Of a stretch of 64,000 nucleotides of DNA, positions 6,457 to 15,291 are shown in pieces. A model generated the notes under the pieces. That model did no database searches. It was not told the DNA's origin and was given only the letters and a program-made list of their open reading frames with translations. The stretch covers positions 62,001 through 126,000 of the forward strand of contig VFGV01000022.1 in NCBI GenBank assembly GCA_009392275.1, given 5' to 3'. Origin of the DNA: SAR202 cluster bacterium (GTDB taxonomy: Bacteria > Chloroflexota > Dehalococcoidia > Lucifugimonadales > UBA2962). A program made the translations under genes and the position numbers. How positions within the stretch are numbered: the stretch's first letter is position 1; each line of letters opens with the position of its first letter.

Positions 6457-6945
6457 TTATTTAGAATCAACTAGCTCAATAATTTTTTCCAAGGAAGGAA
6501 CTTTTCCAGTTCTTTTCAATATCTCTTTACCTTCTGCGTTAACGAGCACGAACCCAGGAACTATTCCTACATTAAATCTGGATTTCAGCTGCTTTCCTAA
6601 TTCATTAGCAATATTTAGGCGAATAACTTGGACCTCATCCTTAAGTTTTTTTTCTAACCTGTCAACTTCAGGTTTAGCCGCTAGGCACCCAACTCAGTAA
6701 TCAGAGTAAAATTCTATGAATAAGGGTCGACGCGACTCCAGGACAACATTAAAATCTTCTATGGTTAAAACAGTGGCTTCGTCTCGCCGCACACTTATAA
6801 ACACAACTGACAAAATTAAAATACCAACTAACACTGCTGATATTGCTAATGCAGGATTGAATACGCGCCAAATAAAAATCCCAATAAGCGCTAAACCTGC
6901 GATACTGACAATAATAAAAGAATATTGATTAATTAAAATAGGCAT
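6457..6945 (-). CDS. Membrane-anchored thioredoxin-like selenoprotein (UxxC) with in-frame UGA
   Basis: Read through the TGA at 6694-6696, the frame gives a 162-aa protein; stopped there it would give 83 aa. Residues about 6-51 form two membrane segments. The rest is a thioredoxin fold: FIEFYSDY, then UGA84-V-G-C87, LAAKPEVDRLE, a beta strand VQVIRLNIA, and the cis-proline loop FNVGIVPGFVLVN (Pro130). UGA sits exactly where thioredoxins carry the first cysteine of CxxC, and protein similarity continues unbroken after it to TAA at 6457. A hairpin resembling a bacterial SECIS follows at 6654-6677. Family knowledge: UxxC thioredoxin-like selenoproteins occur in marine metagenomes. Inference: a periplasmic or outer-face disulfide/peroxide redox protein needing SelB and tRNA-Sec, which are not in this window. 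A nonsense mutation is the alternative. Confidence 0.8.
6654..6677 (-). promoter_or_regulatory. Candidate bacterial SECIS hairpin
   Basis: In mRNA sense, CUAAACCU (6677-6670) pairs with AGGUUAG (6660-6654): seven base pairs with one bulged A, closing a nine-base loop GAAGUUGAC. The loop starts with G, 25 bases after the UGA at 6694-6696. Known bSECIS elements have a short upper stem, a G in the first two loop positions, and a UGA-to-loop distance of about 16-37 bases; all three are met. It lies within the reading frame, as expected for bacteria. It was found by eye, not by a folding program. Confidence 0.65.
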
Positions 6946-10200: not shown

Positions 10201-12129
10201 TCAGCGATTTGTTTCAACGTCACTAGATAATTGTTCCCATTCTCTCTCTAACTCTTCAGATTGCTTTTTAAGAGCTTCATGCTTAAGGCCTAATTTAGCT
10301 AATTGCTCCGGATTTTCTATTTCTTTGGGATCAGTAAAAAATCTCTCTAGATTATTCATCTCAGAATTGATATTTTCCAGCTCTAATTCAATCGTTCTTA
10401 TTCTTTGATTTAATTTACGTATTTTATTCACAGAATAACCCCGAGTACTTCTTTCCCGGATATGTTTACCCTTAGTCAGTTGACTTGGATTAGATGCTTT
10501 ATGTTGAATTGAATCATGCTCGGAAAACATTTTGCTGATATTGGATAAGTAACTTGAGTAATCACCTGGATACATAACAAGTCGTCCGTCTTCTACCCTT
10601 ACGATTTTGTTTGCGACTTGATGCATAAAAGTTCGATCATGAGTAATAAAACATAAAGTGCCTTGGTAGTCATTCAATGCATCAATTAAGATTTCTCGTG
10701 ATTCAATATCAAGGTGGTTTGTGGGTTCATCCATAAAAAGTAAATTGCTAGATTGAAGCAATAACTTAGCTAAAGCTACTCGAGCTTTTTCTCCTCCGGA
10801 TAAAACTGATATCGTTTTATTTATATCATCACCTGAGAACAGAAATCCTCCTAGGATATTTCTTACGACCGCTCGTGAACCCCCTCCAGCAACTTCTTCT
10901 AATTCTTGTATTATCGTTTTTCTAGGATTTAAAAGCTCAAGCAAATGTTGAGAGTAATAACCGGTTGTTACATTATGTCCTAATTTCCTTACCCCACTGT
11001 CGAAATCTAAAACCCCTGCTAGTATTTTCAAAATAGTCGATTTACCAGCCCCATTAACTCCTAATAACGCGACTTTATCTCCCCTTTCTAAAGACAAATC
11101 TACTCCTTTATAAACAACGTTCTTGCCGTATGATTTATTTAAATTTTCCAACTGTATTACTTCGGTTCCACTTCTCAACGGTTCAGGGAAAGAGTATCTC
11201 ACTCGCTTGGTGGCTCTCGGTATATCTATCTTTTCAATTTTATCTATGGACTTTAACCTGCTTTGAACTTGCCTCGCCTTTGTCGCTTTTGACCTAAAAC
11301 GCTCTACAAACTTCATCTGTTTCTTTATTTGTTTTTCAGTTCTAGCGGCGGTCGCTTGTTTGGTTTTGAAAACCTGCTCTCTTGATATTAGGTATTCATC
11401 ATAATTGCCCTTTTGTATGACTATCTCCTCCTCTTCGATAGCTAATATTGATGTGGCTACAGAATTCAAAAATGCCCTGTCATGAGAAGTTACAAGAACA
11501 GCACCTTTAAAATTCATTAAGTATTCTTCAAACCATAAATTTGCTTCTAAATCCAAATGATTTGTCGGCTCGTCCAGAAGCAATAAATCAGGTTGATGAA
11601 AAAGCATCTTGCCCAAATAAGCTCTCATAATCCAGCCACCACTGAATTCTCCCATGAGTTTGCCAAAATCAACTTGATTAAAACCTAACCCAGATAAAAT
11701 TGTCTTTGCTTTATGCTCAGAGTTGTCATGAGAATAAATTTCTAAATGATCATTAATTTTTGCCATACGAGTTAACATAGTTGACTGTGTCTGTTTATTG
11801 ATTCGATTAGATAATAAGTCATGAATATCTCTTAGCTCTTTCCGAAGTGTTAAGACTTCCTCCGGTTCTTCGCATACCTCCCGTAATAAAGGCCTGTTAT
11901 CAAGCTTGTATTGTTCCTGTTTTAAATACGCGACCTTGCAATTTCTTTTTAATACTACTTTTCCACGATCGGCATTAGTCTCCCCAGCTAATATATCCAT
12001 TAGCGTTGATTTACCAGAACCATTAGCTCCTACCAGGGCGATACGATCACCAGCAGACACATTTAATGAAAGGTCTGAAAATAAAATTTCATTCCCATAT
12101 GCTTTCGTAAGGTTATTTGCATATAACAT
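10201..12129 (-). CDS. ABC-F family ATPase (translation factor type)
   Basis: A 642-aa soluble protein with two ABC ATPase domains and no membrane segments. Domain 1 has Walker A GANGSGKST (about residue 35), signature FSGGW and Walker B LLLLDEPTNHLDL. Domain 2 has GVNGAGKST, LSGGEKARVALAK and LLFMDEPTNHLDIES. The linker between them is the charged interdomain (P-site tRNA interaction) motif, with KKQMKFVERFRSKATKARQ. A C-terminal coiled coil rich in Lys/Glu (about residues 575-640) resembles Uup/YdiF-like members. ABC-F proteins act on the ribosome, relieving stalls or conferring ribosome protection; the precise role here is not determinable. It is transcribed toward tRNA-Ile and divergent from the IMPase gene. 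Confidence 0.9.
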   Translation of the reverse strand: MLYANNLTKAYGNEILFSDLSLNVSAGDRIALVGANGSGKSTLMDILAGETNADRGKVVLKRNCKVAYLKQEQYKLDNRPLLREVCEEPEEVLTLRKELRDIHDLLSNRINKQTQSTMLTRMAKINDHLEIYSHDNSEHKAKTILSGLGFNQVDFGKLMGEFSGGWIMRAYLGKMLFHQPDLLLLDEPTNHLDLEANLWFEEYLMNFKGAVLVTSHDRAFLNSVATSILAIEEEEIVIQKGNYDEYLISREQVFKTKQATAARTEKQIKKQMKFVERFRSKATKARQVQSRLKSIDKIEKIDIPRATKRVRYSFPEPLRSGTEVIQLENLNKSYGKNVVYKGVDLSLERGDKVALLGVNGAGKSTILKILAGVLDFDSGVRKLGHNVTTGYYSQHLLELLNPRKTIIQELEEVAGGGSRAVVRNILGGFLFSGDDINKTISVLSGGEKARVALAKLLLQSSNLLFMDEPTNHLDIESREILIDALNDYQGTLCFITHDRTFMHQVANKIVRVEDGRLVMYPGDYSSYLSNISKMFSEHDSIQHKASNPSQLTKGKHIRERSTRGYSVNKIRKLNQRIRTIELELENINSEMNNLERFFTDPKEIENPEQLAKLGLKHEALKKQSEELEREWEQLSSDVETNR

Positions 12130-12233: not shown

Positions 12234-13037
12234 ATGAATCCATTGGAATCCAATTTACCTGAATTATTGGAATTTGCTGAAAGTCTTGCGGACGCAGCGG
12301 AAGTTCCGATTCTTTCCTATTTCCGTTCCCAGTTGAACATCGAATATAAATCCGATTTGAGTCCGGTAACGGTCGCGGATCAGGATGCAGAATATGCCAT
12401 GCGTGAAATAATTCAGACTCGGTTCCCGAATCATGGCATCATTGGTGAAGAGTACGGAAATCTTAACTCAAGCAGTCCATGGAACTGGGTTCTGGATCCG
12501 ATTGATGGAACTGGAGCATTTATCACAGGTAACCCTCTGTTTGGAACTTTAATCGGGCTGATGCACCAAGAAGAACCGATAATAGGAGTTATAAACGCTC
12601 CCTTAACCGGTGAACGCTGGTCAGCAGCCAAAGGTTTTGAGTGCAGATATCAATACAGGAAGAACCCAAAAACTGTCTGTAAAACTTCCAAGAAAACGGA
12701 TCTTTCAAAAACATTTTTATACAGTACCCATCCCTCGATGTTCGATGAATCACAAACTTCACGCTTGTGTCAGATCCAAACCAAGGTTAAAAATCACAGG
12801 TTTGGAGGAGACTGCTATCTTTATGGCATGCTCGCATCAGGCTGGATCGATTTGGTCATCGAAGCTAACATGAAGCTTTTTGATGTAATGGCCTTGATTC
12901 CAGTTATTCAATGTTCTGGTGGTGAGATCTCTGACTGGGATGGTAATCAAATAAGATCTGGATGGGATGGAACAGTTTTGGCGTCCTCTTCTCAAAAGCT
13001 TCATCAAGAGGCGCTGAAAATGCTACAGGCAAAATAA
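12234..13037 (+). CDS. Inositol monophosphatase-family phosphatase (HisN-like)
   Basis: A 267-aa Mg-dependent phosphatase. The metal-binding residues are in GIIGEEYG (Glu), WVLDPIDGTGAFITG (the DPIDGT motif) and, near the C-terminus, IEANMKLFDVMALIP, where the usual WDxxA is LFDVMA. The tight match to the histidinol-phosphatase/IMPase set suggests it cleaves histidinol phosphate or a sugar/inositol phosphate. Start 12234 is nearest the family start; 12213, with GG just upstream, is possible. Four lines of the gene counted by hand give about 45% G+C against about 33% in the next gene, suggesting a different history. Confidence 0.82.
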   Translation: MNPLESNLPELLEFAESLADAAEVPILSYFRSQLNIEYKSDLSPVTVADQDAEYAMREIIQTRFPNHGIIGEEYGNLNSSSPWNWVLDPIDGTGAFITGNPLFGTLIGLMHQEEPIIGVINAPLTGERWSAAKGFECRYQYRKNPKTVCKTSKKTDLSKTFLYSTHPSMFDESQTSRLCQIQTKVKNHRFGGDCYLYGMLASGWIDLVIEANMKLFDVMALIPVIQCSGGEISDWDGNQIRSGWDGTVLASSSQKLHQEALKMLQAK

Positions 13038-13042
13038 TAAAC

Positions 13043-13774
13043 ATGGAGAATACTGTTAGGTCGACATTTGTAATCAGCGGAATGACCTGCCAAGGATGTG
13101 CAAACACAATACAAGAAGGATTAAACTCTGATCCAGATATCAATTCGGCTCAAGTCATATTAGAAACTAATCAATTAACTATTACCTCAAATCAAAAAAT
13201 GAGCGTACAGCAGGTGGATTCTCTACTTTCAAACTTAGGCAACTATAGTGTTGAAAAAAATAAACCAAATCTATTATCTAAAATAATCAGCTATTTAGAC
13301 TCAAGAAAACCAATACTGCTGGCATTATTAGTGGTGACGGTTTCATCTTTGTCCCTGCAAACTGCATATGGCACATTTGATTGGAATAATTGGTTTACAA
13401 CTTATATGGGAATATTTTTTATAGTATTTTCTTTTTTAAAATTACTAAGCGTAAAAGGGTTTAGTGTAACTTTTTCAAAATATGATATTTTTGCAAAAAA
13501 AATACCCATGTTTGCAGTATCCTATCCATTTATAGAATTGTTATTGGGAGTAGCATTCTTAACTCAAACTCTATTAATTGCAGCAAATATACTTACTTTG
13601 ATCTTTATGGTTTCACAATCCATTGGAGTTGTAAAAGTTCTGCAAAGCAAACAAGAAATACAATGTGCATGTTTAGGGTCTTCAATTAATCTTCCAATTT
13701 CATATCTAACTCTTCTCGAAAATATAATTATGATTCTGATGGCTGGGTACATGAGTTACCAGCTGATAAACTGA
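13043..13774 (+). CDS. HMA-domain / MauE-like membrane fusion protein
   Basis: A 243-aa protein in two parts. Residues 7-70 are a heavy-metal-associated domain with the metal site GMTCQGCA (Cys16, Cys19). Residues about 90-240 form four to five membrane segments resembling MauE/DoxX-like proteins, with a further CAC motif (QEIQCACLGSS) in a loop where MauE relatives have a redox cysteine pair. Inference: a membrane metal or thiol redox handling protein, for example moving copper or mercury or reducing a partner. It begins 5 bases after the IMPase stop codon, so they may be cotranscribed although base composition differs. Confidence 0.72.
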   Translation: MENTVRSTFVISGMTCQGCANTIQEGLNSDPDINSAQVILETNQLTITSNQKMSVQQVDSLLSNLGNYSVEKNKPNLLSKIISYLDSRKPILLALLVVTVSSLSLQTAYGTFDWNNWFTTYMGIFFIVFSFLKLLSVKGFSVTFSKYDIFAKKIPMFAVSYPFIELLLGVAFLTQTLLIAANILTLIFMVSQSIGVVKVLQSKQEIQCACLGSSINLPISYLTLLENIIMILMAGYMSYQLIN

Positions 13775-13850: not shown

Positions 13851-14258
13851 ATGACTAAAACAATTGATTGGATTTTCAACTCTACAAAAACTATAGCGAT
13901 TGTTGGCCTATCTGACAATCCGAACCGACCAAGCAATCAAATAGGATCATACTTGCTAAATTATGGTTATGAAATAATACCGGTCAACCCAAATATAGAT
14001 TCTGTTTTTGGAATCAAAAGCTATGCCGATTTACTTCACATTCCTGTACAAATTGACCTCGTCAATATATTTCGCAGATCCAAATTCATTCAACCTATAG
14101 TTGAAGCTGCGATAAAAATTGGTGTTAAGAGTATATGGATGCAAGATGGTGTTGAAGATGTATATGCATCAAAACTGGCAATCAATGCTGGTATCATGGT
14201 GGTCATGGATGACTGTGTATATAGGCAACATAAAGTTTGGCTCAGGCAAAACAACTAA
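13851..14258 (+). CDS. CoA-binding domain protein (YccU-like)
   Basis: A 135-aa single-domain Rossmann-like protein of the CoA_binding_2 family. It shows KTIAIVGLSDNPNRPSNQIGSYLL (nucleotide-binding start), VNPN, and near the end GVKSIWMQDGVEDVYAS, GIMVVMDDC and a final RQHKVW; the WMQxG and DxC motifs are family signatures. The function is not established; it is presumed to bind CoA or a related ligand in the cytoplasm. The next start (thiL) is 1 base after its stop, indicating a translationally coupled pair. Confidence 0.85.
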   Translation: MTKTIDWIFNSTKTIAIVGLSDNPNRPSNQIGSYLLNYGYEIIPVNPNIDSVFGIKSYADLLHIPVQIDLVNIFRRSKFIQPIVEAAIKIGVKSIWMQDGVEDVYASKLAINAGIMVVMDDCVYRQHKVWLRQNN

Positions 14259-14259
14259 C

Positions 14260-15291
14260 ATGAAAGTTAATCAAATAGGTGAATTTAAGTTAATTGAAAT
14301 TTTAGCTAAAACACTATCCGATAACTACAAACATACAAACCCAGAGACAGTCGTTAATGAGGTTGTTAGTTTAGGTGATGATGCAGCAGCCTGGAATATT
14401 ACTGCGGGTCCGCAAGTATTAACTACAGATACATTGGTAGACAATGTGCACTTTGATTTAAACCTTATTAGTGCGGTGAATATCGGATGGAAATCTATTG
14501 TTGCTTCACAAAGCGATATAGCCGCTATGGGATTAAAGCCTTTATTCGCCACAGTATCTTTGGGATTAACCGGAAATGAAGACGTCAATTTGCTAAAAGA
14601 TATTTATATTGGCATGGCTGATGCTACTTCGCGGTTTGGAGGTAAGGTTGTAGGTGGAGATACAGTAAGATCTAACACGTTTTTCATCTCTATATCCATG
14701 ATAGGCCATGATGTATTTAGTGAATCTCATACCGCTCCTCTTCAAAGATCTATGGCAAAAGATGGAGATTTGATAGCTGTCACCGGATATCTAGGATCAT
14801 CTTCCGGAGGATTGCAAATTTTACAAAATAAAACTATCGACCAATCTAAATATCGAAACATAATTGAATCTCATACTAGACCGCAACCGCAAGTCGATGT
14901 CGGCTCTTGGATCGCCCGGAATGGCATAAAGTGCGCTACAGATATAAGTGATGGGCTGATAGCAGATTTGGAACATATATGTAAGGCTAGTAACGTAGGC
15001 ATGAAAATAATAATTGATTCAATCCCAGTAAGTTCAGAATTAAAAAACATTTTCCCTAATGATTGGCGATTGCTTTCAATGACAGGCGGAGAGGATTATC
15101 AACTTGTTTTTACCGGAGATAAAGAATTGATATATAAAGCCATTAAAACGTTAACAACTCCCATTACTGTAATTGGCGAAGTTAATAATGATTATCCTAA
15201 AATAAGCGTTTTCAACAAAAATGGTGGGGAAATAAATTATACATACTCTGGTTTTGATCATTTCGAAAACAAAAAAATGGAGATTAGCTAA
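14260..15291 (+). CDS. thiL: Thiamine-monophosphate kinase ThiL
   Basis: A 343-aa ATP-dependent kinase that phosphorylates thiamine monophosphate to thiamine diphosphate, the last step of thiamine cofactor synthesis. Visible motifs of the PurM/ThiL fold: SLGDDAAAW (about residue 32), TTDTLVDNVHFD, SDIAAMG, KVVGGDTVRSN, ATDISDGLIADLEHI and MTGGEDYQLVF. The same fold includes SelD, but ThiL-specific GDDAA and the absence of the SelD N-terminal Cys/Sec loop settle it. The reading frame is open upstream to 14119, but Met at 14260 directly follows the CoA-binding gene's stop and matches the family start. No TPP riboswitch was seen upstream. Confidence 0.92.
   Translation: MKVNQIGEFKLIEILAKTLSDNYKHTNPETVVNEVVSLGDDAAAWNITAGPQVLTTDTLVDNVHFDLNLISAVNIGWKSIVASQSDIAAMGLKPLFATVSLGLTGNEDVNLLKDIYIGMADATSRFGGKVVGGDTVRSNTFFISISMIGHDVFSESHTAPLQRSMAKDGDLIAVTGYLGSSSGGLQILQNKTIDQSKYRNIIESHTRPQPQVDVGSWIARNGIKCATDISDGLIADLEHICKASNVGMKIIIDSIPVSSELKNIFPNDWRLLSMTGGEDYQLVFTGDKELIYKAIKTLTTPITVIGEVNNDYPKISVFNKNGGEINYTYSGFDHFENKKMEIS

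Follow-up and report, generated by a model that had tools for sequence, protein, structure and literature searches.

On the minus strand of the 64,000-nucleotide stretch analysed here (the window), positions 6945 to 6457 very probably encode a selenoprotein, a membrane-anchored thioredoxin in which selenocysteine (Sec) serves as the first active-site cysteine. A first-pass annotation had read the gene as a probable selenoprotein from its letters, and this reading is now supported by the Sec machinery of the genome, by Sec/Cys exchange among homologues, by covariation in a downstream hairpin and by the recurrence of the TGA codon.

The thioredoxin frame and its homologues

The frame reads MPILINQYSF...IEFYSDY-TGA-VGCLAAKPEVDRLE...VDSK-TAA, that is, 83 codons, the TGA as codon 84 and 78 residues (V-G-C and then 75 more) up to the TAA, for a product of 162 residues counting the TGA position (Table 1). 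The first-pass annotation had placed the TGA at the first thioredoxin cysteine of this frame, with exact coordinates, and had foreseen that a gene caller would return 83 amino acids. This is indeed the product of a standard ORF caller, which stops at the TGA; ordinary gene finders halve the Sec-thioredoxin because the predicted selenocysteine codon resembles a stop. The frame stands out from chance ones: among the TGA read-throughs of at least 40 codons in the window, it is the only one in which, by eye, the TGA falls within a CxxC-like motif belonging to a recognisable domain. The remaining ones did not look like selenoproteins on the same inspection, the majority appearing antisense or non-coding, and two, with TGA at 10203 and 48489, prolong long genes at their ends. 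The window has one match to a 41-base Sec signature pattern, built from the family with the window included, and 100 shuffles have none.

Table 1. Features of the predicted Sec-thioredoxin gene, in window positions
Feature	Position	Strand	Basis
Predicted Sec-thioredoxin gene with TGA read-through, 162 residues including Sec84, TAA end	6457..6945	-	Frame, Pfam, homologues, dN/dS
TGA codon 84, predicted selenocysteine, first position of UxxC (U-V-G-C)	6694..6696	-	Aligned homologues: TGA or Cys only
Cys87, second residue of the UxxC redox pair	6685..6687	-	Invariant in alignments
bSECIS-like hairpin within the coding region, stem AACCUG/CAGGUU, loop AAGUUGA, GU at 6666-6665	6656..6674	-	Covariation, synonymous-codon control
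Transmembrane helix 1, residues 7-28	6862..6927	-	AlphaFold2 helix; hydropathy
Transmembrane helix 2, residues 31-56	6778..6855	-	AlphaFold2 helix; hydropathy
Thioredoxin domain, residues 59-156	6478..6771	-	PF00085; predicted fold, Foldseek match to thioredoxins
Pro130, cis-proline loop of the thioredoxin fold	6556..6558	-	Invariant in alignments

The read-through protein matches the Pfam Thioredoxin family PF00085 (E=3.6e-11, 43.4 bits, cut-off 23.5), as do all 19 members of homologue set A1, and both Cys87 and P130 are invariant in the alignments; the earlier claim that V-G-C and a thioredoxin fold with its cis-Pro follow the TGA is thus borne out. In an AlphaFold2 model built from 20 sequences, residues 7-28 and 31-56 form two helices that precede a thioredoxin fold with a domain pLDDT of about 90. 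In a Foldseek search this model reached a TMt of up to 0.79 against thioredoxins; the closest solved structures were classical thioredoxins, and DsbD C-terminal domains were also among the matches. We regard the thioredoxin fold as a confident prediction.

At residue 84, the homologues have either TGA or a cysteine. A search of 60 relatives returned 21 full-length homologues (E<1e-10), the aligned site being TGA in 17 and Cys (TGT or TGC) in 4; among 67 distinct aligned sequences from a wider set, whose extraction pattern permitted only TGA, TAA, TAG or Cys at the site, it is TGA in 52 and Cys in 15. Unbiased profile searches gave full-length matches with a single TGA or with no stop, the one exception being a homologue in G149 (G149:C5:75534-75965) that is listed with an internal TAG in place of the TGA. 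Across 250 genomes of the order, the full-length homologues fall into two classes, with TGA or with Cys, and the Cys class comes mostly from family f28. In a phylum-wide sample of 400 genomes, matches at E<=1e-20 occur in 47, the majority with one TGA, and a signature scan of about 85,000 prokaryotic species genomes returned 23 loci, all of them from SAR202, Dehalococcoidia, Anaerolineae or Chloroflexi.

In a tree of 84 rows with the site masked, parsimony counts at least 11 Sec/Cys changes, 4 of which are forced by well-supported branches. As judged from these alignments, a predicted Sec-thioredoxin family is widespread in Chloroflexota, with repeated switching between Sec and Cys. In one f28 genus (g66) neighbouring genes place the exchange at one and the same gene position, the Sec form being present in G136 and G146 and the Cys form in G133, G138, G139 and G145; with such exchanges in one clean family, the cost and benefit of Sec become testable by a single-residue swap. 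Two of these genomes, G133 (L124/L142) and G145 (L125/L143), hold Sec and Cys copies at different loci. Separately, G035 (L129), G231 (L130), G282, G326 and G553 each have two TGA-containing copies no more than about 1 kb apart, and L129 and L130 are located just after the main copy.

The TGA is one base away from TGT and TGC and the source record is a metagenome draft, as would suit a nonsense mutation of a former Cys codon in a pseudogene, or a sequencing or assembly error. We consider such an origin extremely improbable. The TGA is common to four species of the genus and to many families, across independent assemblies, and it is found in a TGA-form locus (L104) of AC-647-P02, whose record is not labelled as a MAG and whose name has the form used for single-cell genomes. 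Moreover, over the 74 codons after the TGA, dN/dS between the window gene and its congeners L027 and L028 is about 0.15 (0.055/0.364 and 0.207/1.269; the pre-TGA value for L027 was excluded because of a one-residue gap), which points to purifying selection at the protein level on the C-terminal half. The hairpin covariation described below also speaks against a decayed gene.

One could also suppose that the UGA is a regulated stop, with the 83-residue anchor as the predominant product and read-through strictly dependent on available selenium, in keeping with the competition between termination and SelB that takes place at Sec UGA codons. We find this improbable, since the sequence is most strongly conserved from the UGA onward, the N-terminal half being kept mainly in its hydropathy, and since the Cys forms yield the full protein.

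The downstream hairpin and the selenocysteine machinery

The first-pass annotation had described a hairpin with a G-starting loop 25 bases after the UGA. The hairpin is present, with a stem that begins 19 nt downstream of the UGA and an apical loop of 7 nt (AAGUUGA) that begins at 25 nt, inside the 16-37 nt range of the bSECIS criterion, but in the window the loop does not start with G, which is its third base; in many relatives a pair forms between positions 29 and 33, so that GU opens the loop. The window hairpin has 6 bp and -5.2 kcal/mol alone (-10.6 kcal/mol for the 47-nt segment), and when relatives' hairpins were folded 2 of 4 reached -7.6 kcal/mol. With G at loop position 3 and the energy that it has alone, the window hairpin does not strictly conform to the bSECIS model of PMC13188914, in which a G is among the first two bases of the loop and the MFE is <= -7.5 kcal/mol.

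Because single-sequence folding of the hairpin was not unusual (z between -0.9 and 0), comparative tests were used. An ungapped alignment of 42 TGA homologues has a seven-pair stem with 89% of cells paired, and pairing falls to 39-44% when the partner is slid by one base. Six of the seven pairs have changed on both sides, none of 500 shuffles reached any of the covariation measures, the loop GU is invariant and RNAalifold found the same stem unprompted. These 42 sequences were selected from the 52, ten divergent ones being omitted (mostly from f28, three from f19), and the synonymous-codon test on all 52 carries more weight for that reason. With the amino acids fixed, the core stem is intact in 73% of the observed sequences against 7% expected, the maximum in 300 draws being 17%, and the mean number of paired positions is 5.83 against 4.20 +/- 0.11 in the redrawn sequences; the control gives z=14. 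Some of the 23 signature-scan loci were retrieved by a pattern covering one half of the stem, so that pairing is favoured in those, while most rows came from protein searches. In the 15 Cys homologues no core stem is intact (0%) and most measures carry no covariation signal. With a stem that is present in TGA forms beyond the codon control and lacking in Cys forms, the RNA structure is under selection, and only where the codon is UGA. Thus the bSECIS check that had been proposed was made by comparison, and it gives the hairpin evolutionary support.

About ten TGA homologues (mostly f28, three f19) lack this hairpin register, and among the f28 TGA forms L123-L125, L127 and L128 are mostly without it; the Sec insertion element of these f28 forms, if any, would have a different shape. 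The Rfam family RF00031, presumably the eukaryotic SECIS, had no match in the genome nor in its controls, and at E<=10 Rfam gave chance matches only in the region; neither search is a test of bacterial SECIS elements.

The source genome, a SAR202 group II draft of 1.53 Mb in 23 contigs (89% complete) in which the window occupies C22:62001-126000, has the means to decode such a codon. A tRNA-Sec with anticodon TCA (59.7 bits), SelA (536 bits), SelB (333 bits) and SelD (357 bits) were all detected above curated cut-offs, and the four genes that had been named for checking, selA, selB, selC (tRNA-Sec UCA) and selD, are all present. On a wider scale, SelA was detected in 201 of the 250 genomes of the order, so that many genomes with the Cys form probably still make selenoproteins. 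It was not found in two TGA-form drafts, G003 (79% complete) and G069 (90%), and is present in congeners of G003 and in G070 and G071.

This machinery also bears on the idea that UGA is reassigned genome-wide, or suppressed as Trp, Gly or Cys instead of Sec. Such reassignment occurs in some bacteria, but we regard it here as having next to no likelihood: of the 50 long frames in the window, 13 still terminate at TGA, a further in-frame stop usually following shortly, the homologous residue is always Cys and never Trp or Gly, and a dedicated tRNA-Sec, SelA, SelB and SelD are present.

Three other genes of this genome may be mentioned. In the selD gene itself (L021, G000:C10:111511-112434) the active-site position is occupied by an in-frame TGA (SSAG-U-AAKF), so that this is probably also a selenoprotein gene, in agreement with the UxxK position of known SelD selenoproteins (PMC13188914). 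The tRNA-Sec gene (G000:C10:87933-88026) adjoins a stop-free thioredoxin-like gene (G000:C10:88151-88405), which is probably the canonical thioredoxin of the genome. Within the window, a plus-strand gene at 14119-15291 has a weak match to the selD profile; it was rejected as selD, its product having the AIR-synthase fold and being probably ThiL.

Membrane orientation and redox role

The first-pass annotation considered a membrane-anchored form with two helices unusual; this stands as a description of the protein, but the form is common to the family across Chloroflexota. Over 20 homologues, the N-terminus has a single K/R, the loop between the helices has 27 K/R against 7 D/E, and the segment after helix 2 has 25 K/R against 55 D/E. 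By the positive-inside rule, the positive loop and the net negative segment after helix 2 favour an N-out/C-out topology, and on this charge bias the thioredoxin domain is probably extracytoplasmic. We think it fairly unlikely that the thioredoxin domain instead lies on the cytoplasmic side (N-in/C-in), where cytosolic thioredoxin reductase would reduce it. Such an arrangement would agree with the RR at 53-54 directly after helix 2 in the window protein, and it would spare an outward domain from being without a known electron source in a genome where DsbD/CcdA and VKOR went undetected, but the near-uncharged N-terminus, positive loop and negative post-helix-2 segment of the 20 homologues favour N-out/C-out.

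Based on our results, we infer how an outward-facing Sec-thioredoxin could be made and could work, from Sec insertion to orientation, reductase direction and substrates. SelA and SelD would make Sec-tRNA(UCA), which SelB would deliver to UGA 84 with the aid of the hairpin, and ribosomes would then continue to the TAA at 6457-6459. The two N-terminal helices would tether the domain, probably N-out/C-out, on the extracytoplasmic side, where the Sec84 selenolate might attack disulfides or other oxidised sulfur species of envelope proteins, with Cys87 resolving the selenenylsulfide. We are less sure of the orientation and of the reductase role than of the selenoprotein itself.

The search for redox partners covered the source genome, its relatives and the gene neighbourhoods. 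Neither VKOR nor DsbD/CcdA was detected in the source genome, the latter by a profile search that can miss divergent CcdA, in a draft that is incomplete. In 26 homologue-bearing genomes DsbD_TM was found in 6 and VKOR in 1, with the same reservations about incomplete drafts and divergent CcdA, and in about 60 loci no conserved operon partner emerged, shared neighbours being confined to local synteny inside a genus or a close group. Should the domain indeed face outward, the lack of any recognised electron partner would point to a gap in the envelope redox chemistry of Chloroflexota. As a tentative and rather unlikely extension, the family could be a Chloroflexota-wide set of two-helix, outward-facing Sec-thioredoxins working without DsbD/CcdA or VKOR partners; if true, this would amount to an undescribed electron route between the membrane and envelope thiols in these bacteria.

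It is also conceivable, if doubtful in our judgement, that the Sec/Cys pair acts as an oxidase or isomerase, a peroxidase or a metal- or oxyanion-handling thiol, and not as a general disulfide reductase. No conserved gene neighbour points to a partner, and 6 kb from the gene the window encodes (12962-13774, plus strand) a membrane protein with HMA and MauE domains and a C-x-C motif (CACLG). In the maturation of methylamine dehydrogenase, MauE proteins act together with MauD, which is thioredoxin-like, and this MauE-family protein is a possible redox partner of thioredoxin-like proteins, offered as a lead only. Against such roles, the reductase arrangement known from characterised Sec-thioredoxins combines UxxC, a classical thioredoxin fold and cis-Pro, and this combination is predicted here.

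Comparison with known thioredoxins and selenoproteins

The predicted Sec-thioredoxin resembles classical thioredoxin (PF00085/TrxA) in its fold, in the C/UxxC at the start of the active-site helix and in the cis-Pro. It differs by its two N-terminal transmembrane helices and by the family motif YSxYUxxCLxxKPxVDRLE, where TrxA has WCGPCK; it scores 38.4 bits against the TrxA equivalog TIGR01068 (cut-off 96.8), and the genome has a separate stop-free thioredoxin-like gene, described above. With ResA, TlpA and the C-terminal domain of DsbD it shares a membrane-tethered thioredoxin domain, here probably outward-facing. Membrane-anchored thioredoxins of the ResA/TlpA type have one helix and DsbD has eight, unlike the two found here, and the DsbD/CcdA electron donor went undetected, with weak profile matches only.

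Among selenoproteins, GOS_C (NF045500) is alike in its UxxC and thioredoxin-like fold, and it was absent from the families listed for the window protein (19) and for all members (25). TsoB (NF045694) matches the thioredoxin part locally and weakly, with 19.9 bits where the cut-off is 805, and the window protein matches no NCBIfam model at cut-off. A further comparison involves cd02950, which we take to be the TxlA family of membrane-linked thioredoxin-like proteins. The 'Trx-like 3' group of the Global Ocean Sampling survey (2008), cd02950-like at E>0.001, likewise consists of marine-enriched UxxC proteins and counts numerous Cys homologues (183, against 212 Sec members; PMC2398784). That paper mentions neither Chloroflexi nor a membrane anchor, and the comparison is by description only; the two-helix Chloroflexota family may overlap with 'Trx-like 3' and perhaps already be present, unlabelled, in that survey.

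A literature search on SAR202 thioredoxin-like selenoproteins found no paper, those found on selenocysteine in SAR202 and on selenoproteins in Chloroflexota seem unrelated by their titles, and the two-helix Chloroflexota thioredoxin is not named in the accessible portion of a 2026 inventory of 119 selenoprotein families, whose Table 1 includes an experimentally verified Sec-thioredoxin (UxxC) (PMC13188914). In line with the first-pass annotation, descriptions of UxxC thioredoxin-like selenoproteins from marine bacteria go back to the metagenome surveys (PMC2398784, PMC9402790). In conclusion, the kind is already known, and the two-helix Chloroflexota family within it reaches no NCBIfam cut-off; in SAR202 and other Chloroflexota, a widespread membrane-anchored redox protein, cut short by standard annotation, very probably contains selenocysteine.
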